This document shows positions 4,326 through 56,957 of a stretch of 64,000 nt of DNA, one piece after another. This DNA is from Micromonospora sp. Llam0 (GTDB lineage Bacteria; Actinomycetota; Actinomycetes; Mycobacteriales; Micromonosporaceae): positions 5,022,001-5,086,000 of the forward strand of contig NZ_RJJY01000001.1 in NCBI RefSeq assembly GCF_003751085.1. The letters run 5' to 3'. The position numbers and the translations under genes are program-made. Numbering within the stretch: position 1 is the first letter of the stretch; each line of letters opens with the position of its first letter. Under the pieces are notes generated by a model. The model made no database searches and had not been told where the DNA came from. It was given only the letters and a program-made list of their open reading frames with translations.

Positions 4326-5948
4326 ATGACAGCCACCAGATGGCGGCGCTGGCGTACCGGCGTCGTGGCGCTCGCCACGACCGCCATGGTCGCCACCGGC
4401 GCAGCGGTCGGCATCCAGCACGCGGCAGCTGCCACCGTCGACACCAACGCCTGGTACGTGCTGGTCAACCGGCACAGCGGCAAGGCGATCGACCTGTACA
4501 ACTGGGCGACCAACGACGGCGCGCCGATCGTCCAGTGGGCGCGCAACGACCAGACCGTTCAGCAGTGGCAGTTCGTCGCGGCGGGCAACGGCTACTACAA
4601 GATCCGGTCCCGGCACAGCGGCAAGTACCTGGAACTGCCCAACGCCAACGACGGCACCCAACTCGTCCAGAACTCCGACAACGGCAGCACCCGCCAGCAT
4701 TTCGGGGTGCTGGACTCGGACAGCGGCTACGTCCGGTTCGTCAACCGGCACACCAGCAAGGTGCTGGACGTGTGGGAGTGGTCCACCGCAGACGGCGGGA
4801 TCATCTCGCAGTACCAGGACCTCAACGGCTGGAACCAGCAGTGGCAGATGGTCCGGGTCGACAGCGGCGGCCCGCCGCCGACCACCCCGCCGCCGTCCGG
4901 CGACTGCGGGTCCGGCTCGTTCAACGCCGAGGCCGTACAGAACGGGTCGACCTGGACGGCGCGCAACGGCGGCAGCACCGTCTACACCGGCTCCAGCATG
5001 CTGTCAGCCATGCAGGCGGCGGTGAACAGCCTGTCGGCCGGGCGCAACAGCAAGCAGAAGGTGATCGTCCGCGGCTCCGGGTCGATCAGCGCCGGCTCCC
5101 GGCTGTCGCTGCCGTCGTACACCGTCCTGGAGGTCTGCGGCACGGTCAACGTGACCGGTTCCGGCTCCGGTGACCAGGCGGTGGTGTACGCCCGTGGCGT
5201 CACCGACGTCGAGGTGACCCGGCTCAACATCACCGGCAACCCGCTGTACGGAATCTTCATCCGCAACGGCAACAACATCACCCTCGGCCAGATCGACATC
5301 CGGGTCACCGCCGGCCTGGGCATCCGGATCGACAACCACGGCGACCGCAGCCAACGGTCCCGCAACGTGCGGATCGACAACGTGTACGTGCAGGGCACCA
5401 GCGCGCACGGCGTCGAGACGTACGGGGTCGACGGGCTGACGGTCGGCACCGTCACCGCCCGCAACACCGGCTACTCCGGCCTGATCCTCAACGACACCGT
5501 CAACGCGACCGTCGGCACCGTCGACGCGCAGGGCGCCGGCACCGGCACCGGGTACGCCGGGTTCCGGATGGCCAACCGCAACGGCCGGGTCGGCAACAGC
5601 TACCCGACGAACATCCGGGTCGGCACGGTCATCGCCCGGGGCGGCGGCCGGGGCATCTTCTGCGTGTCGGAGTCCGGCGGCGCGGTCATCGACCGGATCG
5701 ACATCTCCGGCACCGGCAGCAACTCGATCCTGCTGGAGAACTGCTACAACGTGAACATCGCGGCGGTCTCCGGTTCGGTCAACGGCTCGGACGTGCGGAT
5801 CGCCTCGCGCACCGAGTTCCCGGTGTCGCGCGACATCACCCTGCAGAACCTGACGCTGACCAATTCGCAGATCAACGAGAACCCGTGCGGGCAGAACATC
5901 GTGATCCGCAACATCGCGCTGAACAACTCGACCATCAACCGCTGCTGA
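4326..5948 (+). CDS. Secreted RICIN-type lectin / right-handed beta-helix protein
   Basis: A 540-residue exported protein with a strong AGGAGG site (4317-4322). Residues 1-36 form a signal peptide (RRWR then a hydrophobic run ending QHAAAA). Residues ~40-178 are a beta-trefoil carbohydrate-binding domain with three similar repeats (NRHSGKAIDL, SRHSGKYLEL, NRHTSKVLDV, each followed by a Q.W/QHF-type motif). Residues ~179-192 are a Pro/Thr linker. Residues ~195-540 form a parallel beta-helix with many N-x-T and V-x-I rungs and repeated VGTV motifs, like polysaccharide lyases/hydrolases. It probably binds and acts on an extracellular polysaccharide. No catalytic residues of a named lyase family could be assigned. 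Confidence 0.8.
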   Translation: MTATRWRRWRTGVVALATTAMVATGAAVGIQHAAAATVDTNAWYVLVNRHSGKAIDLYNWATNDGAPIVQWARNDQTVQQWQFVAAGNGYYKIRSRHSGKYLELPNANDGTQLVQNSDNGSTRQHFGVLDSDSGYVRFVNRHTSKVLDVWEWSTADGGIISQYQDLNGWNQQWQMVRVDSGGPPPTTPPPSGDCGSGSFNAEAVQNGSTWTARNGGSTVYTGSSMLSAMQAAVNSLSAGRNSKQKVIVRGSGSISAGSRLSLPSYTVLEVCGTVNVTGSGSGDQAVVYARGVTDVEVTRLNITGNPLYGIFIRNGNNITLGQIDIRVTAGLGIRIDNHGDRSQRSRNVRIDNVYVQGTSAHGVETYGVDGLTVGTVTARNTGYSGLILNDTVNATVGTVDAQGAGTGTGYAGFRMANRNGRVGNSYPTNIRVGTVIARGGGRGIFCVSESGGAVIDRIDISGTGSNSILLENCYNVNIAAVSGSVNGSDVRIASRTEFPVSRDITLQNLTLTNSQINENPCGQNIVIRNIALNNSTINRC

Positions 5949-9806: not shown

Positions 9807-10745
9807 ATGCCAACGCCGCTGCTCAGCGGCCGGGTCACCGCGACCTTGGCGGTCGTGACCGCCACCGCCGCGACCGCCGCCGTCGCGACCGCCGCCGTAC
9901 TCGCCGCACCACCGTTGGCGTCGCCGGCCCACGCGGACACCTCCGCCACCGGATCCGGCGGCCAGCGACTCACCGTCTCCGACTCCACCGGTATCAGTCG
10001 TTCCGGCGCGACCGTCACGGTGACCGGCACCGGGTACGACACCAACAAGGGCATCTACGTCGGATTCTGCGTGGACAACGGCGACGGGGCGCTGCCGACA
10101 CCGTGCGGCGGCGGGGTGGACACCTCCGGCGGCAGCGGCAGCTCGCACTGGATCTCCAGCAACCCCCCGTCGTACGGCGAAGGACTCGCCGTGCCGTACG
10201 GCCAAGGCGGCTCGTTCCAGGTCCGAATCCCGCTGACCACGAAAATCGGCGACGTCGACTGCACCGTACGCACCTGCGCGGTGGTCACCCGCGCCGACCA
10301 CACCCGGACCAGCGACCGCAGTCAGGACGTACGCGTCCCGATCAGCTTCGCGGCCGCCGCCGCGCCCGCCCGCACCAGCGCCGCCCCGGCGGCCGGCAAC
10401 CCGGACCGGACCACCGCGCCGCCAGGCCCGGCCAACGGCGACGCCGCAGACCCGTCCGGCACCGTCGGCGACTCCCCAGGCTCATCCGGCGAGGCGGGCG
10501 AGGCGGGCCAGCCCAGCGGCTCCGCACCAGCTGCCGGCGCCGCCACCGGCCAACCGACCGACGGCACCGACGGCCCGACCGCCGTCGCCGGCACCGACCC
10601 GACCGGGTTGGCGGTCACCCGGGTCAGCACCGTCGGCCCGGCCGGTCGGTGGTGGAGCAGCACGCTGATCCTGCTGGCGCTCGGCGTACTGGCGCTGGCC
10701 GGGCTGTCCGCTGGCCGCCGCCGGCACCGCCGGAGCCGGTCGTGA
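9807..10745 (+). CDS. Exported, membrane-anchored surface protein with a neocarzinostatin-like domain
   Basis: A 312-residue protein; ATG preceded by GGAGGG. Signal peptide ~1-44 (ending SPAHA). Residues ~52-185 form one Ig-like domain (TGISRSGATVTVTGTGYD, VDCTVRTC, DRSQDVRVPISFA) clearly related to the middle domain of the HtaA protein, with the same VDCTV..C and DRSQD....ISFA signatures. Residues ~186-275 are a low-complexity Pro/Ala/Gly/Ser/Asp stalk. A transmembrane helix (~285-303) and Arg-rich tail (RRRHRRSRS) anchor it. It opens the iron-regulated heme operon and overlaps hmuT by GTGA, so it probably passes heme toward the transporter. It lacks an HtaA domain. Confidence 0.7.
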   Translation: MPTPLLSGRVTATLAVVTATAATAAVATAAVLAAPPLASPAHADTSATGSGGQRLTVSDSTGISRSGATVTVTGTGYDTNKGIYVGFCVDNGDGALPTPCGGGVDTSGGSGSSHWISSNPPSYGEGLAVPYGQGGSFQVRIPLTTKIGDVDCTVRTCAVVTRADHTRTSDRSQDVRVPISFAAAAAPARTSAAPAAGNPDRTTAPPGPANGDAADPSGTVGDSPGSSGEAGEAGQPSGSAPAAGAATGQPTDGTDGPTAVAGTDPTGLAVTRVSTVGPAGRWWSSTLILLALGVLALAGLSAGRRRHRRSRS

Positions 10746-11764
10746 ACCGCCCGACGCTGGTCGGGCTGGTCGCCGCCGTGCTGCTTGCCGGCCCGGTGGC
10801 CGCCTGCGCCGACAGCGCCGCCAACCCCGGCGCGGCACCGGATCCGGCGACCTGCGGCCCGGTCACCGCCGTCGTCGGCGACGACGCGGTGACGCCGCTG
10901 GACCCGGCACCACAACCGGCGTTGCCGGTCACCGTCACCGACGCCGCCGGCGACCGGGTCACGGTGACCGACGCCGACCGCATCCTCGCGGTCAATCTGT
11001 ACGGCTCCATCGCCGAGATCGTCTTCAGCCTCGGCCTCGGTGACCGGGTCGTCGGGCGGGACACCTCCACCGACTTCCCGGCCGCCGCCGACCTGCCGCT
11101 GGTCACCCCCGGCGGGCACGACCTGTCCACCGAGGCGGTCATGGCGCTGGACCCCAGCGTGGTGCTGCTCGACGACAGCATCGGCCCACCCGAGGTGCTC
11201 GACCAGCTCCGCGCCGCCGACATCCCGGTGGTACGGATCGGCGACGAGCAGAGCCTGGCCGCCGTACCGGTGCACATCCGTGAGGTGGCCGCCGCGCTCG
11301 GCGTCGCCGACGCCGGCGAGGCACTCGTCGCCCGGGTCGAGGGCGAGATCGCCACCGCCCGCGACGGCATCGCGGACGACGCCGAGCGGCCCCGGGTCGC
11401 CTTCCTCTACCTGCGCGGCACCGCCGGCGTCTACCTGATGGGCGGCAAGGGCGCCGGCTCGGACGCGATGATCGCCGCGGCCGGCGGCGAGGACGCCGGC
11501 ACCGCCATCGGACTGGAACGGTTCCGGCCGCTGACCAGCGAGGGTCTGATCAACGCCGCGCCGGACGTCATCCTGGTGATGACCAAGGGCCTGGAATCGG
11601 TCGGCGGGGTGGACGGACTGGTCGCCATGCCCGGCGTCGCCCAGACCCCGGCCGGCCAGCAGCGGCGGATCATCGACATGGACGACACCGTGCTGCTCAA
11701 CTTCGGCACCCGTACCGGCAAGGCGATCCAGGCTCTCGCCCGCGCCATCCACGAATGCCGGTGA
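10742..11764 (+). CDS. hmuT: Hemin ABC transporter substrate-binding lipoprotein
   Basis: A 340-residue lipoprotein from the GTG at 10742, overlapping the previous stop. The N-terminus has a lipobox ending VAAC (Cys ~22). A TroA/BtuF-like two-lobe fold follows: DRILAVNLYGSIAEIVFSLGLGDRVVGRDTSTDFP, then VMALDPSVVLLDDSIGPPEVL, then VAFLYLRGTAG with AAAGGEDAG. This motif order is typical of HmuT. It binds heme outside the membrane and delivers it to HmuUV encoded immediately downstream. Confidence 0.9.
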   Translation: MNRPTLVGLVAAVLLAGPVAACADSAANPGAAPDPATCGPVTAVVGDDAVTPLDPAPQPALPVTVTDAAGDRVTVTDADRILAVNLYGSIAEIVFSLGLGDRVVGRDTSTDFPAAADLPLVTPGGHDLSTEAVMALDPSVVLLDDSIGPPEVLDQLRAADIPVVRIGDEQSLAAVPVHIREVAAALGVADAGEALVARVEGEIATARDGIADDAERPRVAFLYLRGTAGVYLMGGKGAGSDAMIAAAGGEDAGTAIGLERFRPLTSEGLINAAPDVILVMTKGLESVGGVDGLVAMPGVAQTPAGQQRRIIDMDDTVLLNFGTRTGKAIQALARAIHECR

Positions 11765-43607: not shown

Positions 43608-46220
43608 TTAGTCGGCCGCCAGCGACTCCACGACCGGCTGGCGCAGCGCCCGGCGGGCCGGCAACACCGAGGCGACCAGCGCGGCGACCGCCGCCACCGC
43701 GACGACGACCCCGAGCTGTGTCCAGGGCAGGTCCAGCCGGAAGATGTCGTCCTCGGCATGGTTGAGCACGGCGAGCGCGCTCGCCGCCCCGGCCACCCCG
43801 ATCGCGATGCCACACGCCGTACCGCTGACCGCCGTCAGCACCGCCTCGGTGGCGAGCATCCGGCGCAGCTGGCCCCGGGTCAGGCCGACGGCCCGCAGCA
43901 GGGCGTTCTCCCGGGTCCGTTCGACCACCGACAGGGTCAGGGTGTTGGCCAGCCCGAGCAGCGAGATGAGGATCGCCAGGGCCAGCAGCGCCAGCACGAA
44001 CCGCAGCACCGTGTCGACGGTGCCGGTACGCGCCTCGGCGTACGCCGCCCGGTCGACGAAGGTCACGAACGGGTAGCTGACGACGATCGACTCCACCGCC
44101 TCGCGGGCGGCCTCGGCGCCAACGCCGGCTGCCGGGTCGAGCTGCACCAGCCAGGTGTCGATGTCGGGGTAGACGGCGGTCACGTCCTCCTCGACGGCCA
44201 ACACCCTGCCGGTGGCCGGCTGGTCGCCGCCGCTCGGGTCGGCGAGGACTGCGGCGACGACAACGTCGCGCGCCTGCCCGACCGCGCCGCCGACGGAATC
44301 GGCAGACCCGGCCGGGCCGGCGGGATCGACGGGATCGGCCGAGTCGACGGGTTCGACCGAGTCGACCGGAACGGGTTCCAGGCGAAACCGGTCGCCGACG
44401 GCGAATCCGGTCGCCTCGTTGACGATCACCCGGCCCGGCCCGAAGTCCCGCACGTCACCGTCGGCCACCGCCAGCTTCGCCTTGGCCAGCAGGTCGGGGT
44501 GGCCGGCGGCCACGTCGAACCCGCCCGGAGCGCCGTACACCTCGGCGCCGCCGAGCACCACGCCGAGTTCCGGCAGGTCACGAAGCCGGTTGACCAGCTC
44601 CGGCGGCACCGGGTCCAGGTCGGACTCAACCAGGAAGGCGGCTCCGATCCGGGCGTCGACCTCCCGCTCCACGGCCCGTTTGACGCTGTGCGCGCCGACC
44701 GAGAACGACGTCACCAGCCCGATGCCGATCACCAGCGCCATGGCGGTGGCAGCGGCGCGGCGCGGGTTGCGTACCGCGTTGGCGACCGCGAGCCGGGCGG
44801 TCGGACCGGCGACCCAACCGGTCAGTCGGCCGAGCAGCCGGGTGACCGCCGGCACGATCAACGGGCTGGCCAGCACCAGACCGACAAAGGCCAGGATCCC
44901 ACCGGCGACCACCACCAGCAGGTCCTCGAGCCGGCCGGCGGCGACCAGCCCGAGCACGCCGACGACGATCAGCAACAGGCCGGCGCCGAGCCGCAACCGG
45001 TTGACCGGTCGGGCGACGGTCAGCGCCGCGTCGGTCAGCGCCGCGACCGGCGGTACGGCGGTGCCGCGCCAGGCCGGCAGCAGCGCCGCGCCGACGGTGA
45101 CCCCGACGCCGCAGACCAGGGCGACGACGACGGTACGCGGGCTGACCACCGTGCCGCTCGGCATACCGCTGCCCAGCTCGGCGTAGAGCTGGCGCAGCCC
45201 GGCGGCGGCCACCACCCCGAGCAGCAGTCCCCAGACCGCGCCGATCAACCCGACGGCGGCGGCCTCGACGACGCCGGCCCGGAACAGCTGCGCACGGGTG
45301 GCCCCGACGAGGCGCAGCAGCGCCGTCTCCCGGGTGCGTTGGGCGAGCAGGATCGTGAACGTGTTGGCGATGACGAACGCGGCGACGAAGACCGCGATCG
45401 CGGCGAACGCCAGCAGCAGCCGGGTGAACTGCTCGCCGTTGCCGACCGAGAAGTCCAGCGCGGCGGCCCGCAGCTGCTCGCCGGTGCGGGTGGCGACGTA
45501 CCCGCCGGCGGCCGAGCGCAGGCGTTCGGCCAGCTCGGCCTGGCCGACGCCCGGTGCGGCGACGACCAGCACCCGGTCCAGGTCGGTACGGCCGGTGAGT
45601 TGGCGGGCGTCGGCGTCGACCAGGCCGAGCAGCGCGCCACCGGAGTCGACGCCGGTGCCGGCGACGTCGACCAGGCCGACCACCTGGTACGGCTGCGGCT
45701 GCCGGTCGGTGACGGCGGCCTGCACCTGGTCGCCGATGGTGATGTCCCGCCGGTCGGCGGTCCGGGCGTCGAGCACCGCCTCCCCGGGCCGCTGCGGCAG
45801 CCGGCCGGCGGCCAGCGGCAGGCCGGCCAACTGGGGATCCGCCGGGACGGTGACCAGGTTGTTCAGGCCCGGGATGGACTGGTTGTCCGGGCCGAGCAGC
45901 CCGACGCCGTACCAGCTGAAGGTGCCCTCGGCGGCGGCGACCCCGTCGACCTGACGGACGGCGTCGACGAGCGTGGCCGGCAGCACCTCGCCGTCGACGT
46001 CCGGCGCGCCGGCCTCGCCGGCCGGTACGTCGAAGTCGCGGGTCAGTTCGACGTCGACGAAGCGGTCGAGCAGCCCGGCGCGTTGCTCGGTGGCGGCGGT
46101 CAGCCCGTCGGAGAAGATCAGGGTGCCGGTGACGAAGCCGACGCCGAGGACGATCGCCAGCGAGGAGAGCAGCAACCGGCTGGCGTGGGCGCGCAGCGAA
46201 CGCAGGGTGAGCCGCAGCAC
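43608..46220 (-). CDS. FtsX-like ABC transporter permease (MacB type)
   Basis: An 870-residue protein with two FtsX-type core regions (TMs near 250-400 and 740-860), each preceded by a large extracellular MacB_PCD-like domain. The N-terminal helix follows RAHASRLLLSSLAIVLGVGFVTGTLIF. Motifs RTRETALLRLVGATRAQL and RTRENALLRAVGLTRGQL are the paired cytoplasmic coupling helices. Such transporters act in lipoprotein release, envelope stress or peptide/antibiotic efflux. Its ATPase is encoded 6 bases upstream. Confidence 0.9.
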   Translation of the reverse strand: MLRLTLRSLRAHASRLLLSSLAIVLGVGFVTGTLIFSDGLTAATEQRAGLLDRFVDVELTRDFDVPAGEAGAPDVDGEVLPATLVDAVRQVDGVAAAEGTFSWYGVGLLGPDNQSIPGLNNLVTVPADPQLAGLPLAAGRLPQRPGEAVLDARTADRRDITIGDQVQAAVTDRQPQPYQVVGLVDVAGTGVDSGGALLGLVDADARQLTGRTDLDRVLVVAAPGVGQAELAERLRSAAGGYVATRTGEQLRAAALDFSVGNGEQFTRLLLAFAAIAVFVAAFVIANTFTILLAQRTRETALLRLVGATRAQLFRAGVVEAAAVGLIGAVWGLLLGVVAAAGLRQLYAELGSGMPSGTVVSPRTVVVALVCGVGVTVGAALLPAWRGTAVPPVAALTDAALTVARPVNRLRLGAGLLLIVVGVLGLVAAGRLEDLLVVVAGGILAFVGLVLASPLIVPAVTRLLGRLTGWVAGPTARLAVANAVRNPRRAAATAMALVIGIGLVTSFSVGAHSVKRAVEREVDARIGAAFLVESDLDPVPPELVNRLRDLPELGVVLGGAEVYGAPGGFDVAAGHPDLLAKAKLAVADGDVRDFGPGRVIVNEATGFAVGDRFRLEPVPVDSVEPVDSADPVDPAGPAGSADSVGGAVGQARDVVVAAVLADPSGGDQPATGRVLAVEEDVTAVYPDIDTWLVQLDPAAGVGAEAAREAVESIVVSYPFVTFVDRAAYAEARTGTVDTVLRFVLALLALAILISLLGLANTLTLSVVERTRENALLRAVGLTRGQLRRMLATEAVLTAVSGTACGIAIGVAGAASALAVLNHAEDDIFRLDLPWTQLGVVVAVAAVAALVASVLPARRALRQPVVESLAAD

Positions 46221-46226
46221 TTGACC

Positions 46227-46988
46227 TCACCCACCCACGCGGGTGCCGTCGAGGCGGGACATCACGTCGAGGATGGCGTCGGCGTCGGGCCGGTCCAGGT
46301 CGGTGACCCGACGTCCGTCGGCGAGGAAGGTGACCCGGTCGGCGCGGGTGGCGGCGAGCGGGTCGTGGGTCACCATCACCACGGTCTGCCCGAGCTGGTC
46401 GACGGCGTCGCGCAGCAGGCGCAGCACCTCGGCGCCGGTACGGGAGTCCAGGTTGCCGGTCGGCTCGTCGGCGAAGATCACCGACGGTCGGGTGATCAAC
46501 GCGCGGGCGACGGCCACCCGCTGCTGCTGCCCGCCGGAGAGTTCGGCCGGCCGGTGCCCGAGCCGGTCGGTGAGCCCGACGGCGGCGACCACCCGGTTCA
46601 GCCAGCCACCGTCGACCCGGCGGCCGGCGATCGCCAGCGGCAGGGTGACGTTCTCCACCGCGGTGAGCGTCGGCAGCAGGTTGTAGCGCTGGAAGACGAA
46701 CCCGATCCGGTCGCGGCGCAGCATCGTCAGCCGCCGGTCGTCGAGCCGGGTGATGTCGGCGTCGCCGACGCGTACCGAGCCGGTGGTGGGCCGGTCCAGG
46801 CCGGCGAGGCAGTGCATCAGGGTCGACTTGCCGGACCCGGAGGCGCCCATGATCGCGTGGAACCGGCCGGCGTCGAAGGCGACGTCGACGCCGTCCAGCG
46901 CGGTGACGGCCGCCTCGCCGGTGCCGTACACCTTGGTCAGGCCGGTGGCGGTGACCGCCGCGGCCGTGGTCGTAGTGGTCGAAGACAT
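46227..46988 (-). CDS. ABC transporter ATP-binding protein (MacB/LolD type)
   Basis: A 253-residue ATPase with Walker A GASGSGKST, Q-loop FVFQRYNLLPTLT, signature LSGGQQQR, Walker B VIFADEPTGNLD and H-loop VTH all intact. It drives the FtsX permease encoded immediately downstream. The gene is 96 bases after the response regulator, probably part of the same regulon. Confidence 0.93.
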   Translation of the reverse strand: MSSTTTTTAAAVTATGLTKVYGTGEAAVTALDGVDVAFDAGRFHAIMGASGSGKSTLMHCLAGLDRPTTGSVRVGDADITRLDDRRLTMLRRDRIGFVFQRYNLLPTLTAVENVTLPLAIAGRRVDGGWLNRVVAAVGLTDRLGHRPAELSGGQQQRVAVARALITRPSVIFADEPTGNLDSRTGAEVLRLLRDAVDQLGQTVVMVTHDPLAATRADRVTFLADGRRVTDLDRPDADAILDVMSRLDGTRVGG

Positions 46989-52154: not shown

Positions 52155-55100
52155 TCAGGGAGGCCGGGCGAGTTGCCGTCCGGTCTCGGTGGCCTCCGGC
52201 AGGCCGAGCACGGTGAACAGGTCGTGGGCCAGGATCAGCTGTTCGCGGGATTCGTGGTCGGCGCCGAGCGCGTGCAGCACCCGCGAAAGCACCGCGTAGG
52301 CGTAGGCCTGATCTCGCTGGTCACTGAGCCGCTCGCAGTGACCGGCCGCCTGCCGGGCATGCCGGAGAGCGAGCTCCAGCTCGCCGGTCTCTCGCAAGGC
52401 GTCCGCCAGCCGGTAGCGCGCCCTCGCCTCCCGCACGTGCAGACCGGCCGACACACACAGGTTGAGGCACCGGACGAACCATGACACGGCGTCCTCGTAC
52501 CGCTGCTGGTCGAACGCCGCAAGCCCGATGACATACCACGCGTACGCGGTCGCGCCGTCGTCCGACAGATCATCGAACGAGTCCAGGGCTTCCCGGCAGG
52601 CGGCCTCCGCCTCGGCGGGCTCTCCACGGTAGACCTCGGCCAGTGCCGCGTTGACGATCGACATGAACTCGCCGACGCGGTGGCGAAGCCGCCGGGCCAG
52701 CCCGATCGCCTTCTCGAAATGGGTGACGGCACTGTCGTAGTCGCCGCGACGCAGCGCCAGCAGACCCAGGGTGTCCAGCGCCCGCCGCAAGATGGGGGCG
52801 TCGTCGTGCTCGGCGCACAGCTCGGCGGCGATCCTGGTCTCCCGCTCGGACTCCTGGAGGCGTACCGCCGCGATCGCCAGCTTGCCGCGCAGGAAGTGCG
52901 CGCGCCCGGCCATCTTCCCGTCGCCGGCGCGGTCCGCCGCCGCGCACAGCACGGACACCAACTCGATCGTCGGTTCCGCGCGTGGGTCTGGCCCGAACGG
53001 CGAAATCGCGATCATCAGATCTACCGAACGACGAAGGAGGTTCCCTCCGCCGGCCGTCATCTGCCCGACCAGTGCCACGATGTTCGGCAACTCTGCGGCT
53101 GCCCAGCGCCGGGCGCTCGCGAGGCTGTCCAACGGCTGCCCGGCGGCCCCGTCCGCGGCCAGGGTCACGGCGACCGGATCGCCCGGAGCAGCCCGCTGGA
53201 ACGCGTTGACCGCAGTGGCGAGAAGGGCGTCGAGCAGCCGCCCCTGGGAGGCGGCGATCTCCCCGGCCGATCCTGCCGATCCGGCCACTCGGGCTGCTCC
53301 GGCCGCCCTGGCCGCCCCGGCTGCTCCGGCGATGTCCTGGGCGAGGGCGAACGACCGCACGAGGGGATGCAGGTGGTACCGCCCGGCGGTGTCCGACTCG
53401 AGCAACGCCAGGTCGACCAGTTCCTCCAGCAGGTCTTCGCTGTCCGGCTCGGGCCGGTCCAGCATCCGGGCCGCGATGGGCAGCGCGAAGTCCGGCATGT
53501 CGGTGACGGCCAGCAGGACCAGTGCACGCTGCTGTTCCGGGGTGAGCTGCCGCCAACTGGCCAGGAAGGTCGCGCTCACGTCGAGATCACCGGCCCGCAA
53601 CGTGCCCAGCCGGCACCCGCCGGTGAACCGGTCGCGAAGCGTGAACCGGTCGCGAAGCGTGCCGATCGACCAGCCCGGCCGGGCGGCCAGCCGGGCCGCC
53701 ACGATGCGGACCGCCAGCGGCAGCAATCCGCAGGCCACCACGAGCTCCCGTGCCGTCTCGCGCTCGGCGGCCACCCGGTCGTGGCCGATCACCCGGCTCA
53801 GCAGCTCAATCGCCTCGGCCTCGTCGAACACCTCGAGGTCGGCGTGCACGGCGCCGTTCAGGCCGGCCAGCCGGGATCGGGAGGTGACCAGTACGCCGCA
53901 GGTCGCGGCTCCCGGCAGCAACGGGGTGATCTGGGCCAGGTTGTGCGCGTCGTCCAGCACCACGAGCAGCCGGCGGTCGTGCGTCACCGAACGGAACAGC
54001 GCCGACCTGCTGTCCAGGCAGTCCGGGACGGACTCCACCCCGAGTGCCGCGAGGAAACCATCCAGGACGTCCTGCGGCGATGCCGGCCTGGCGTCACCGC
54101 CCCTGAGCTCCGCGTACAGCTGACCGTCCGGGTAGTGCGCGCCGACCCGGTGAGCGACGTGTCGTGCCAGGGTGGTCTTGCCGAGACCGCCCATCCCGGC
54201 CACGGCGACAATCGGCAACGAGCCCCGGTCGGACCGGCTCAGGGCGTTGATGATCAGGCGGGCCACCGCCTCGCGCCCGGTAAAGTCCGCAGTGCTGGCC
54301 GGGACCTGGGCCGGCCGCGGCACCGGCACATCACTGCCCACCGGCTCATCGCTCCGCACCGGCTCCTTGGGGCGCGCAAGCTCCTTGGTGCGCGCCGGCT
54401 CCTCATTCCGCACCGGCAGGGCGGCGGGCCCTTCGCTGGCCAGGAGCCGCCGGTGGGCGTCGGCAAGCTCGGCGCCGGGTTCCAGCCCCAGCCGGTCCAC
54501 GATCCTGCGGCGAGCGGCCGGGAATACCGCAGCGGCCTCCCCCGTCCGGCCGCTGGCGTGCAGTGCCCGGATCAACAGCACGACGAGGCTTTCGCGCAGC
54601 GGGTTCTCGTCGATGAGCGCACGCAACTCGGGCACACACCAGGAGGCGCGGCCGAGGTCGATGTCCAACGCCAGACGCGCCTCCAGCAGGTCCAGGTGCA
54701 GCTCAGTCAGCCGGCGGCGATGCCGTTGCGCGAACGGGCCGGGCACCCCGGCCAGCGGCTCGCCGTTGAAGAGGGCAAGCGCCTCGGCCAGCATTGCGCG
54801 AGCACTCCTCGCGTCGCCGACCCGGCGGGCGCGACGGGCGCGACGGGCCAGCGCCTCGGCGTACCGCACATCGACGGCGTCCTCGGGCACCTCCAGGCGG
54901 TAGCCGTCACCGACGGTCGTCAGGAGCCGGGGCTCGGCAGCGTCGTTCTCCAGCACCTTGCGCCAGCGCCAAGCGTACGTACGGAGGCTCTTCGTCGCCG
55001 TGACCGGCGGGTCGTCGCCCCACAGCGCTTCCATCAGAACGGCCGCGCTCACCGCCTGACCCGGCCGCAGGAGAAGGACGACCAGCAGGGCCTGTTGCTG

Positions 55101-55178
55101 CGGACTTCCCATGTCGAGATCGGCAGAGCCCCGGCGGCCGCGCACCACGCCGAGCAGGTTGAAGCGAAGGGATTCCAT
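52155..55178 (-). CDS. AfsR/SARP-type transcriptional regulator with NB-ARC and TPR domains
   Basis: A 1007-residue protein. Residues ~1-97 form a winged helix of SARP type (SLRFNLLGVVRG, GDDPPVTATKSLRTYAWRWRKVL). Residues ~98-245 are a BTAD domain. A basic/acidic low-complexity hinge follows (~255-295). The NB-ARC ATPase has P-loop AVAGMGGLGKTTLA (~326-339), LLVVLDDAHN (Walker B) and GLLPLAVRIVAARLA (GLPL-like). TPR repeats fill ~790-1000. SARP regulators activate antibiotic clusters. It is divergent from the peptide/YcaO genes and is the obvious cluster-situated activator. Confidence 0.92.
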   Translation of the reverse strand: MESLRFNLLGVVRGRRGSADLDMGSPQQQALLVVLLLRPGQAVSAAVLMEALWGDDPPVTATKSLRTYAWRWRKVLENDAAEPRLLTTVGDGYRLEVPEDAVDVRYAEALARRARRARRVGDARSARAMLAEALALFNGEPLAGVPGPFAQRHRRRLTELHLDLLEARLALDIDLGRASWCVPELRALIDENPLRESLVVLLIRALHASGRTGEAAAVFPAARRRIVDRLGLEPGAELADAHRRLLASEGPAALPVRNEEPARTKELARPKEPVRSDEPVGSDVPVPRPAQVPASTADFTGREAVARLIINALSRSDRGSLPIVAVAGMGGLGKTTLARHVAHRVGAHYPDGQLYAELRGGDARPASPQDVLDGFLAALGVESVPDCLDSRSALFRSVTHDRRLLVVLDDAHNLAQITPLLPGAATCGVLVTSRSRLAGLNGAVHADLEVFDEAEAIELLSRVIGHDRVAAERETARELVVACGLLPLAVRIVAARLAARPGWSIGTLRDRFTLRDRFTGGCRLGTLRAGDLDVSATFLASWRQLTPEQQRALVLLAVTDMPDFALPIAARMLDRPEPDSEDLLEELVDLALLESDTAGRYHLHPLVRSFALAQDIAGAAGAARAAGAARVAGSAGSAGEIAASQGRLLDALLATAVNAFQRAAPGDPVAVTLAADGAAGQPLDSLASARRWAAAELPNIVALVGQMTAGGGNLLRRSVDLMIAISPFGPDPRAEPTIELVSVLCAAADRAGDGKMAGRAHFLRGKLAIAAVRLQESERETRIAAELCAEHDDAPILRRALDTLGLLALRRGDYDSAVTHFEKAIGLARRLRHRVGEFMSIVNAALAEVYRGEPAEAEAACREALDSFDDLSDDGATAYAWYVIGLAAFDQQRYEDAVSWFVRCLNLCVSAGLHVREARARYRLADALRETGELELALRHARQAAGHCERLSDQRDQAYAYAVLSRVLHALGADHESREQLILAHDLFTVLGLPEATETGRQLARPP
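53623..53658. repeat. 18-bp tandem duplication in the AfsR-like gene
   Basis: Two identical copies (53623-53640 and 53641-53658) encode a repeated TLRDRF in the NB-ARC region (around residue 510). Frame is kept. Confidence 0.8.
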
Positions 55179-55414
55179 GTCAATCGCAGACGACCGCGTC
55201 GGCGGCGTCCCGCAAGTCCACCCTCATCTCGCCATCCTGGCAAACCGGAGCGGCCAGCGGGCCCGGCTGTAGGTGAACCCATAGGCGTGGTGTGGATGAC
55301 TGCGACATTGATCGACAGCGGTACCTGACTGCGGATATATCAAATCGCGTATCCGGTGTCTATCGGCGTGTCCGAAGCTCGATCCAAGGCACCTCTCGAT
55401 GAAGGAGGAAGCAC
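55179..55414. promoter_or_regulatory. Divergent promoter region of the AfsR-like and peptide/YcaO genes
   Basis: A 236-base gap. Bases 55330-55380 are A+T-richer and contain two similar stretches, ATCGCGTATCC and ATCGGCGTGTCC, whose starts are 18 bases apart; they could be SARP-type direct repeats. The peptide's ribosome site AAGGAGG is at 55402-55408. Confidence 0.35.
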
Positions 55415-55549
55415 ATGGGACTGCACGACGCGATCTACCGGGCCCAGCAGGACAAGCCGGAACTCGCCGAGACCGAGCAACTGGTCCTCGACGAGCTGGC
55501 CGAGCGTGACCAGGACTCCGAGGTAGCGGCGGCCGAGTCCGCCGGCTGA
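55415..55549 (+). CDS. Putative RiPP precursor peptide (44 residues)
   Basis: ATG at 55415 with AAGGAGG 6 bases upstream, a much stronger site than most in the window. The translation begins MGLHDAIYRAQQDK and ends SEVAAAESAG. Residues 15-35 are Glu/Asp/Leu-rich and probably helical, as in many leader peptides; the last ~9 residues (AAAESAG region) would be the core. There is no cysteine; Ser37, Ser42 and Thr20 are the only hydroxyl side chains besides Tyr8. The YcaO gene follows after 94 bases on the same strand. No close precursor family was recognised, so the precursor assignment rests on size, ribosome site and context. Confidence 0.6.
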   Translation: MGLHDAIYRAQQDKPELAETEQLVLDELAERDQDSEVAAAESAG

Positions 55550-55615
55550 GTCGACGTCACAGGGGCCGGGCGGCTCGCCCGCCCGGCCCACCCGGTCCCG
55601 CAGTGCGTTCAGTCT

Positions 55616-55650
55616 GAGGTGGAGTGACGTCGGAGGTGGAGTGATGTCGG
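55616..55650. repeat. 17-bp tandem duplication over the YcaO ribosome-binding site
   Basis: The 18-base stretch GAGGTGGAGTGACGTCGG (55616-55633) is repeated at 55633-55650 with C changed to T. The second copy supplies the ribosome site and ATG (55644); the first copy has ACG in the same place, so it is a non-initiating duplicate. Confidence 0.75.
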
Positions 55651-56957
55651 GGACAGATCTTGCGGCCGGCTCGGTGGTCCAGGACGGTGAGCGGACGCTG
55701 AGCTTGTCCGAGGCCCACCTGCGGGGTCTGGCGGCAGCGGCCGAGCTCGATCTCCGGGTGGACTGCACGGCGGTGCTCGACGGTGATCCGGCAGTCTGGA
55801 CCGCGACGTTGTGGCGTGGCGACGACCCGGTGCCCAGCGGGCTGGGACTCGGCAAGGGAAACTCGGCGGCAGCGCAGGTCGGCGCGATCTTCGAGGCGCT
55901 GGAGCACCACCTCAGTGGGCTGCATGGCCTCGCTGACGACGGGACGACGCTGCGCCGCGCGGGTGAGATCTGCCGCGACGTGACGCTCAGCCAGGACGTG
56001 GCGCTCGGCCTGCTCGGGGAGTTGCCCGACGGGCCGATGGGGTGCCTGCCCTTCCGGGTGGTGACCAGCGGCGCCGAGATCGACGTGCCGCTGTTCCTGT
56101 CCGTGCCGGACTACCTCGACGAGGAGGCCGACCCGCTGCGGGACAGTCTGGGTGACCACTACGACTACACCGGGGTGAGCCGGTACTCCTGCAACAACGG
56201 CTGGGCGGCGGGCGCCGACCCGGTCGAGGCGGCGGTCCACGCGCTCAACGAGACCATCGAGCGGGATGCCTTCTCCCTCCTGCTGGTCGACCAGTTCCTG
56301 GGGCGGCGAAGGTCACCGCTGGTCCTCATCGAGGCGAGCACGTTGCCGGACGACCTCGCAGCCCTGGTGTCAGCGGCGGAGACCATCACCGGCCGGCGGC
56401 TGCATCTGATCGACATGACCAGCGACCTGGGCGTGCCGGCGATCTTCGCCTACCTTCCTACCCGCGACGGCGAACCGGCCCGGATCCGCGGCTGTGGCGC
56501 CTCGCTCTCCCGGCACTATGCGATCGCCCGTGCCGTGAGCGAGCTGGTCCAGGTCCACCTGGCGTCCTCGCTCGGGAACATCCACTCCGCGTTCGCCGCC
56601 ATGACGCCCGTCCGGCACGACTGGACGACGCCCTATCCCGCACTCCACGCCTGTTACCGAAGTGACTTCAGCAGCCGGCTGGCCGACGCCACCGTCGTGC
56701 CGTACCAGGAGACGGAAGCGCCGGACACTGCGGTTGGCCATTTCGACGCGCTCATCGATGCCCTCGTCAGACGCGGCTTCACGCCGCTGCAGCGTGACCA
56801 CTACGTCACCGGCAACCTGGCCGTGGTCAACATCTTCGTCCCCGGCCTGGAGCGGTTCATGCTCGTCACCGACGGACAGGTGGTGGTGCCGGGGAAGCGC
56901 GGCATGGCGGTCAAGAACAACGGAGTACGGCCTGAATCCGTGCTCGATGTCAGATAG
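55644..56957 (+). CDS. YcaO-family peptide-modifying cyclodehydratase-like enzyme
   Basis: A 437-residue protein; GGAGG lies 7 bases before the ATG at 55644. The YcaO ATP-binding signature is present: GLGKGNSAAAQVGAIFEALEHH (~65-86) with E-x2-E spacing, then HALNETIERDAFSLLLV (~200) with E-x2-ERD. The C-terminus ends PESVLDVR, not the PxPxP of azoline-forming enzymes. YcaO enzymes activate backbone amides with ATP to give azolines, thioamides (with TfuA) or amidines. No E1/ocin-ThiF partner, TfuA, dehydrogenase, protease or exporter adjoins it. Stand-alone YcaO proteins form amidines in, e.g., bottromycin- and streptamidine-like pathways, so an amidine or a new chemistry is plausible. Confidence 0.85.
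   Translation: MSGTDLAAGSVVQDGERTLSLSEAHLRGLAAAAELDLRVDCTAVLDGDPAVWTATLWRGDDPVPSGLGLGKGNSAAAQVGAIFEALEHHLSGLHGLADDGTTLRRAGEICRDVTLSQDVALGLLGELPDGPMGCLPFRVVTSGAEIDVPLFLSVPDYLDEEADPLRDSLGDHYDYTGVSRYSCNNGWAAGADPVEAAVHALNETIERDAFSLLLVDQFLGRRRSPLVLIEASTLPDDLAALVSAAETITGRRLHLIDMTSDLGVPAIFAYLPTRDGEPARIRGCGASLSRHYAIARAVSELVQVHLASSLGNIHSAFAAMTPVRHDWTTPYPALHACYRSDFSSRLADATVVPYQETEAPDTAVGHFDALIDALVRRGFTPLQRDHYVTGNLAVVNIFVPGLERFMLVTDGQVVVPGKRGMAVKNNGVRPESVLDVR

Follow-up and report, generated by a model that had tools for sequence, protein, structure and literature searches.

A 44-residue peptide and a stand-alone YcaO enzyme, encoded side by side in Micromonospora sp. Llam0, probably constitute a minimal RiPP system related to that of bottromycin, in which the YcaO would make an N-terminal macroamidine on a precursor that bears a C-terminal follower. 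The two genes lie in a window of 64,000 nucleotides, the whole stretch of DNA that was analysed, and comparison of sequences shows the pairing itself, its conservation, the core/follower layout of the peptide, the clade of the enzyme and a regulator that travels with both genes. An earlier note on this DNA had proposed a peptide-YcaO pair with a backbone amidine as a guess at the chemistry, and this much stands; the orientation it gave to the peptide and its view that the family was unfamiliar do not. The features of the locus are the following.

52155..55178, minus strand: AfsR-type SARP regulator (BTAD, NB-ARC and TPR by Pfam), divergent from the peptide gene and ycaO
55329..55341, plus strand: 13-bp element CTGCGGATATATC, putative promoter/operator (alignment of 8 loci and genome search)
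55415..55549, plus strand: 44-aa precursor peptide MGLHDAIYRAQQDKPELAETEQLVLDELAERDQDSEVAAAESAG (ORF with Shine-Dalgarno sequence, conserved in 7 other genomes)
55563..55589, plus strand: GC-rich hairpin with an 11-bp stem, between the peptide gene and ycaO (alignment and folding)
55641..56957, plus strand: stand-alone YcaO of 438 aa, BtmF/BotCD clade (PF02624, profile comparison and trees)

The peptide frame is preceded by the Shine-Dalgarno sequence aaggagg, and the ycaO frame, with start candidates at GTG 55641 and ATG 55644, follows after a gap of 91 nt. The ORF with its AAGGAGG site, the YcaO behind it and the flanking AfsR-type gene were all confirmed where the earlier note had placed them. 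The YcaO domain (125.7 bits against a cut-off of 25.7) is the only domain that Pfam finds in the protein, and the YcaO profile was aligned to MJ1094, TruD, LynD and MusD. The hairpin between the two genes is kept in the alignment of all eight intact loci described below and folds at -30 kcal/mol; its z is only -1.26 against shuffles, so that this energy is unexceptional for the composition, and the hairpin was dropped as a strong RNA structure and remains a minor feature, through which ycaO expression may be lowered relative to that of the peptide. The genome has four further YcaO genes, all away from this locus. Two further YcaO genes are direct neighbours in the same genome (G000:C1:2607206-2609709; L003 and L004), on the opposite side of the YcaO tree.

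The Pfam scan of the surroundings covered eighteen genes, called between 43608 and 63998. Annotated among them are the AfsR-type regulator, a two-component system, an FAD oxidoreductase, a glyoxalase and an NHL-repeat protein, together with further regulators of the TetR, AraC and DUF5753 types, and seven of the eighteen have no Pfam domain match. The MacB/FtsX-type ABC transporter pair at 43608-46988 lies more than 8 kb from the peptide gene. As had been claimed from the letters alone, none of the 18 neighbours is an E1-like, TfuA, azoline-type dehydrogenase or protease gene by Pfam, and an E1-like/Ocin-ThiF domain is absent both from them and from the YcaO protein itself. Nor do they include a second YcaO, a radical SAM methyltransferase, an amidohydrolase or a P450, and no Pfam match to a FecBCDE importer, a hydrolase or a dehydrogenase was obtained next to the pair. 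The peptide has no Cys, one Thr and two Ser in its 44 residues, which together with the lack of a partner domain upholds the earlier statement that azoline chemistry is unlikely.

When 300 genomes of the Micromonosporaceae were searched with the YcaO at 1e-30, 13 genomes matched: eight with an intact gene (85-100% identity, the own genome counted), two with a broken one and three with a distant relative (33-37%). The named relatives are Solwaraspora and Plantactinospora (89%) and Catenuloplanes (85-86%). Among 396 genomes of the phylum at 1e-40, the own genome was the sole match within the top 4 candidates per genome. The peptide lies upstream of the YcaO in all eight intact loci and is 81-100% identical in the seven other genomes; for the three distant YcaOs (L016-L018, 33-37% identity) tblastn with the peptide gave no credible match. 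Within the peptide, residues 1-9 (MGLHDAIYR) are invariant over the eight loci, as are ELAETEQ, DEL and ERD, and variation is greatest towards the C-terminus, where position 44 is occupied by five different residues. The earlier note had read an acidic leader followed by a modified Ala/Glu/Ser C-terminal core, EVAAAESAG, and had asked whether the C-terminus is conserved. N-terminal leaders are the rule in most YcaO RiPPs, which counts for such a layout, yet the conservation is the reverse of what was supposed: the C-terminus is the least conserved part in the eight loci while residues 1-9 do not vary, and across the wider family the N-terminal stretch is variable and a conserved block follows it. 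With this, a leader at the N-terminus has become very improbable, and the layout was rejected on conservation in the 8 loci and in 37 family peptides. The acidic part behaves instead as a C-terminal follower, ELAETEQLVLDEL, behind a proposed N-terminal core GLHDAIYR left after Met removal, a division that is likewise drawn from conservation.

The association extends to the regulator. An AfsR-type gene stands beside the pair in all eight intact Micromonosporaceae loci, and the 13-bp element, which occurs only once in the 8.9-Mb genome, is invariant in the divergent intergenic region of all eight. In a comparison of flanks covering about 19 kb per locus at an identity threshold of 45%, five other genomes of the same genus have flanking genes in common with the window; the three intact loci of a second genus (G047, G006 and G098) have no flanking gene in common with any other locus over that distance and at that threshold, and there the AfsR-type gene, the peptide and the YcaO alone stay together. 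G105 and G079 have an AfsR-type gene that aligns along all 1007 residues, and in five of the eight loci (G034, G060, G006, G047 and G098) the protein ends near residue 615, without the TPR part. These truncated genes (L145, L146 and L149-L151) occur in both genera. In the two loci with a broken YcaO (L152 in G093 and L153 in G067), the AfsR-type gene is fragmentary, with remnants of residues 847-1007 and 402-617, respectively, and the peptide was not found; judged from these remains, the whole unit appears to have been lost in two genera.

Comparable pairs, whose front ends keep changing, recur among other actinobacteria and in a few other bacteria. A profile built from 52 YcaO sequences picked out 126 related loci across the genome collection, and the 80 best were retained. 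An ATG ORF of 28-75 codons, preceded by a Shine-Dalgarno sequence, with Gly as second residue and starting within about 460 nt upstream, was found in 52 of the 80, and windows of equal size drawn at random from that DNA contained 1.2 +/- 1.0 such MG-ORFs, at most 5 in 200 trials. The peptide is thus conserved beside YcaO homologues, as the earlier note had proposed to check. The upstream ORFs mostly follow one pattern: MG, a hypervariable stretch, the block L[TS]xxExxxLxEL and a variable tail. In 37 non-redundant peptides the mean pairwise identity is 7% over residues 3-14, 31% in the follower block, a figure inflated because the block was placed by a score matrix, and 8% in the tail. Gly was present in 33 of the 37, a biased count, the set having been selected for Gly at residue 2 and then for acidity; seven peptides (L033, L037, L051, L058, L067, L068 and L072) were in addition included by hand for their MG start or motif.

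Less biased than that count are the random windows and three further tests. In held-out scoring, for which the matrix was trained without the given peptide and its relatives, 53 of 59 peptides outrank at least 99% of 860 control ORFs, the six that fall short of this mark being L032, L055, L068, L076, L081 and L095; the window peptide scores 17.7 bits, above all 860 controls and all 200 of its own shuffles. With a threshold of 11 bits, the full matrix finds 59 ORFs, spread over 54 of the 80 loci, and 58 of these adjoin the YcaO on the same strand, the 59th lying 1.7 kb upstream in a mycobacterial locus. Out of sample, an MG-peptide was found upstream in all four new Streptomyces loci (L159, L160, L161 and L164; L160 has a TGA within the YcaO frame), and three of the four peptides exceed the best control score of 9.8. 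Both plasmid relatives that were examined, two of five matches, from Streptomyces and Pantoea, likewise encode MG-peptides, which carry the annotation hypothetical protein. The pairing, the eight intact loci, the random windows, the held-out scores and the new loci together support the earlier reading of a RiPP precursor with a stand-alone YcaO.

The family has several variants. Peptides begin MAC in thirteen Nocardiopsis/Glycomyces loci, for example MACAGYEWTVPLENADDIAPAVEELDEETAE. This branch (L077, L080, L083-L085, L087-L091, L093, L094 and L099) has peptides of 31 to 36 aa with a MAC[AS] start and a Cys-containing N-terminal core, and its loci carry a divergent gene of one family, which encodes a methyltransferase in L077, the single member that was scanned. 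Mycobacterial peptides, from three loci (L037, L038 and L058), begin MNPRR... or MIVTN... and contain an LT.AEQ-type block, and in seven of the 80 loci (L035, L052, L063, L086, L096, L097 and L098) no candidate peptide was found. At L082:8860-9660, in Actinomadura sp. J1-007, five tandem precursor-like genes, each preceded by a Shine-Dalgarno sequence, are followed by one YcaO, and their products differ at the N-termini and have near-identical followers. In L072 the peptide gene lies downstream of the YcaO. Such arrangements bear on the idea that the short ORF is no substrate at all and is instead a regulatory upstream ORF, a translation-coupled attenuator for ycaO, as its end 91 nt from ycaO and the hairpin in between might suggest: five tandem genes with different N-termini, a peptide gene placed after the YcaO, and cores that vary as the follower block is kept all speak against it, and we consider it highly improbable.

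The enzyme itself leads to bottromycin. A search with the precursor model found bottromycin clusters in 2 of 392 Streptomyces genomes, and BtmF/BotCD was assigned in these by gene order as the second YcaO after the precursor and BtmE as the first, following the btm naming order. Against the family profile, BtmF scores 209 and 205 bits and BtmE 35 and 43, compared with 64 and 60 for the thioamitide YcaOs, 28 for E. coli YcaO and 12-89 for 32 other actinobacterial YcaO domains, these 32 references having been scored as domain-only pieces and BtmF as a whole ORF, with L103, L104, L132 and L136 excluded. In 382 Streptomyces genomes searched at 1e-40, the matches within the top 4 candidates per genome were eight family members and the two BtmF and no other. 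A tree of 77 rows separates the 51 family sequences, together with the bottromycin YcaOs of either type, from 22 others (97*), and a careful tree of 60 rows, from which BtmE and the longest branches had been removed, gives the split at 100/100, with BtmF inside or beside the family in a weakly supported placement. The 17 rows omitted from the latter are E. coli YcaO, ref_L135, L068, L098 and two BtmE, all on long branches, and eleven removed for thinning. The thioamitide YcaOs fall with the other YcaOs in both trees, outside the side of the family and BtmF.

By its sequence, then, the window YcaO is a member of the clade of the bottromycin macroamidine enzyme BtmF/BotCD, which lends support to a backbone amidine as the best guess and places within known company a system that the earlier note had put outside the families it recognised. 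Two features of the trees temper this. BtmE, for which a role in thiazoline formation has been proposed, is likewise placed with the family in the 77-row tree, on a very long branch, so that the chemistry cannot be read from the clade alone; and the BtmF branch is itself long, about 2 changes per site in the 60-row tree, so that function may have diverged.

The steps that we infer beyond this, namely Met removal, the reaction and its ring size, follower cleavage and regulation, would proceed as follows. The N-terminus of the short-gene product would be the core, and the acidic C-terminal helix would be the follower recognised by the YcaO. Methionine aminopeptidase would remove the Met, as Gly follows it, and the stand-alone YcaO would activate, at the expense of ATP, a backbone amide a few residues from the N-terminus; the free amine of Gly1 would then attack the activated amide to give a cyclic N-terminal amidine with loss of 18 Da, and the reading accordingly predicts a -18 Da product. 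For the des-Met peptide the predicted monoisotopic mass is 4662.23 in place of 4680.24, and a dehydrated GLHDAIYR fragment, released if the follower were cut off behind Arg9, would have an [M+H]+ of 926.484. The follower would be removed by an unlinked protease, and the divergent AfsR-type regulator would turn the unit on, probably via the region that contains the 13-bp element. To our knowledge, macroamidine formation is known from very few peptides, and we know of a product or reaction for no member of the family except bottromycin. Bottromycin derives from the N-terminus of its precursor, and it has been proposed that Gly1 attacks the amide joining residues 4 and 5 (PMC5103208). Because the window pair has the same plan (Met-Gly, N-terminal core, acidic follower and a stand-alone BtmF-clade YcaO), the most likely product is an N-terminal macroamidine on GLHD.... 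Several observations count against it: seven of the 80 loci lack a candidate peptide, the BtmF branch is long and the follower similarity to bottromycin is weak. The MN or MI starts of the mycobacterial relatives also fit poorly with Met removal before Gly. Moreover, macrocyclisation of bottromycin in vivo needs BtmF together with a partner, the amidohydrolase BtmI (PMC5103208), and the absence of such a BtmI-type gene near the pair, among the 18 neighbours, is a further point against a macroamidine.

The same layout might instead serve another YcaO reaction, giving a small N-terminal amidine, an Asp-dependent heterocycle, a thioamide or an amidine formed from ammonia. The core is unrelated in sequence to GPVVVFDC, and Asp is enriched at residues 5-9 of the family peptides (24 of 37, against 14.3 +/- 2.7 in shuffled peptides, with 0 of 2000 as high), suggesting a role for Asp. 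Tailoring-type genes also occur near some relatives, in single loci a GNAT (L022), a methyltransferase (L086 and L077), a nitroreductase (L071) and a P450 (L041), and SagB with a methyltransferase, as annotated. With BtmF the closest YcaO of known reaction, however, and with TfuA, E1-like and dehydrogenase genes absent among the 18 neighbours, we regard a different chemistry as a real possibility, albeit an unlikely one.

What such pairs might do in the cell can be approached through their neighbours. Near the YcaO, 23 loci, mostly of Streptosporangiaceae, have a gene for a related protein of about 700 aa, and this gene is the next one on the same strand in 22 of the 23, with gaps of 81-323 nt in 21. 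The loci concerned are L036, L040, L043-L051, L053, L054, L056, L057, L060, L061, L064-L066, L070, L074 and L078. Pfam finds a NACHT (STAND) domain in both members scanned; PADLOC gave weak partial matches only, for two of these neighbours, and a defence system was rejected. AfsR-type genes also adjoin the YcaO, or sit one gene from it, in the three Kutzneria loci L035, L052 and L063, in which the peptide was not found. The STAND NTPases are AfsR-type in Micromonosporaceae and Kutzneria and membrane NACHT proteins in loci of the Streptosporangiaceae type. It is tempting to suppose that the macroamidine chemistry of bottromycin is a specialised branch of an older and wider system of MG-peptides and lone YcaOs in Actinomycetota and some Pseudomonadota, many of whose products would be intracellular cyclic-amidine ligands sensed by the adjacent STAND NTPases and not secreted antibiotics; we offer this tentatively and think it distinctly doubtful. 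An intracellular ligand is suggested by the recurrent STAND NTPases beside the pairs and by the family gene maps, in which no constant exporter was seen, and sensing by the NTPase is weakened by the loss of the TPR part from five of the eight AfsR-type proteins. Self-contained pairs with freely varying N-terminal cores would supply many enzymes for peptide macrocyclisation, the family would suggest an origin for the enzyme of bottromycin, and in genome mining the cores would here need to be sought at the N-terminus.

Among known systems, azoline-forming RiPPs differ from the window pair in their E1-like/Ocin-ThiF partner and their Cys/Ser/Thr-rich core. The TfuA-linked thioamitide YcaO is likewise an actinobacterial RiPP enzyme, but no TfuA occurs among the 18 neighbours and those YcaOs belong to another clade. 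The streptamidine/pyrimidone (ami) class comes closer, being widespread and likewise pairing a stand-alone actinobacterial YcaO with a peptide poor in Ser, Thr and Cys, and streptamidine has been reported as an amidine, the values quoted for the amidine carbon of streptamidine and of bottromycin lying near 157-158 ppm (PMC8442711). The ami precursors, however, have an ALV motif and a core between leader and follower, and streptamidine was lost when amiB, C, D, E or F1-F4 was deleted, AmiB being listed without a conserved domain (PMC8442711). The window peptide has no ALV motif, several partner genes essential to the ami class were not seen at its locus, and no gene of the AmiC/E or FecBCDE type, no hydrolase and no dehydrogenase is matched by Pfam beside the pair; membership of the class was rejected on the peptide and on Pfam-detectable gene content, and is in our view extremely improbable. 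In the consulted parts of the literature on YcaO RiPPs the peptide-YcaO family appears undescribed, although supplementary networks of PMC8442711 may list some of the peptides. PMC4603692 leaves out the other YcaOs that lack a C protein and gives their substrates as unknown, and stand-alone YcaOs are outside the scope of the review PMC7136475.

Bottromycin itself provides the nearest comparison, its two YcaOs acting without partner proteins on a precursor that has a follower and not a leader, as one review has it (PMC7136475). The precursor model NF033414 (bottro_RiPP) is unmatched by the window peptide at E up to 10 and by nine relatives at E up to 1, and the control, a bottromycin-like peptide in L069, matches at 2.5e-30; the bottromycin follower scores 0.98 bits against the family motif, a level also reached by 1781 of 20000 shuffles and by 31 of the 860 control ORFs; this similarity is not significant and is not taken as proof. 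The locus L069 (L069:1-12698), from Saccharopolyspora sp. NFXS83, has a family pair inside a bottromycin-like cluster, as a third YcaO (10043-11263) with its own MG-peptide MGVVILLVDHAESLELADQRLSQQEELLLTDSTVDAESE; the cluster has its own BtmE- and BtmF-like genes and its own precursor, a MGPAVVFDC... variant MGPAVVFDCMTADFLNDDPNNAELSELEMRELESWGSWSDENGSVE at 5510-5650 on the minus strand. Unlike the bottromycin cluster, the window pair has a single YcaO and a divergent AfsR-type regulator, and its core is Cys-free and unrelated to GPVVVFDC. As in bottromycin, the precursor has 44 aa, an MG start, an N-terminal core and an acidic C-terminal follower, and the YcaO lacks an E1-like domain and belongs to a common clade apart from the other YcaOs compared. 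With the bottromycin precursor model and tailoring genes absent, the window pair is best regarded as a relative of the bottromycin system and not as a bottromycin cluster.
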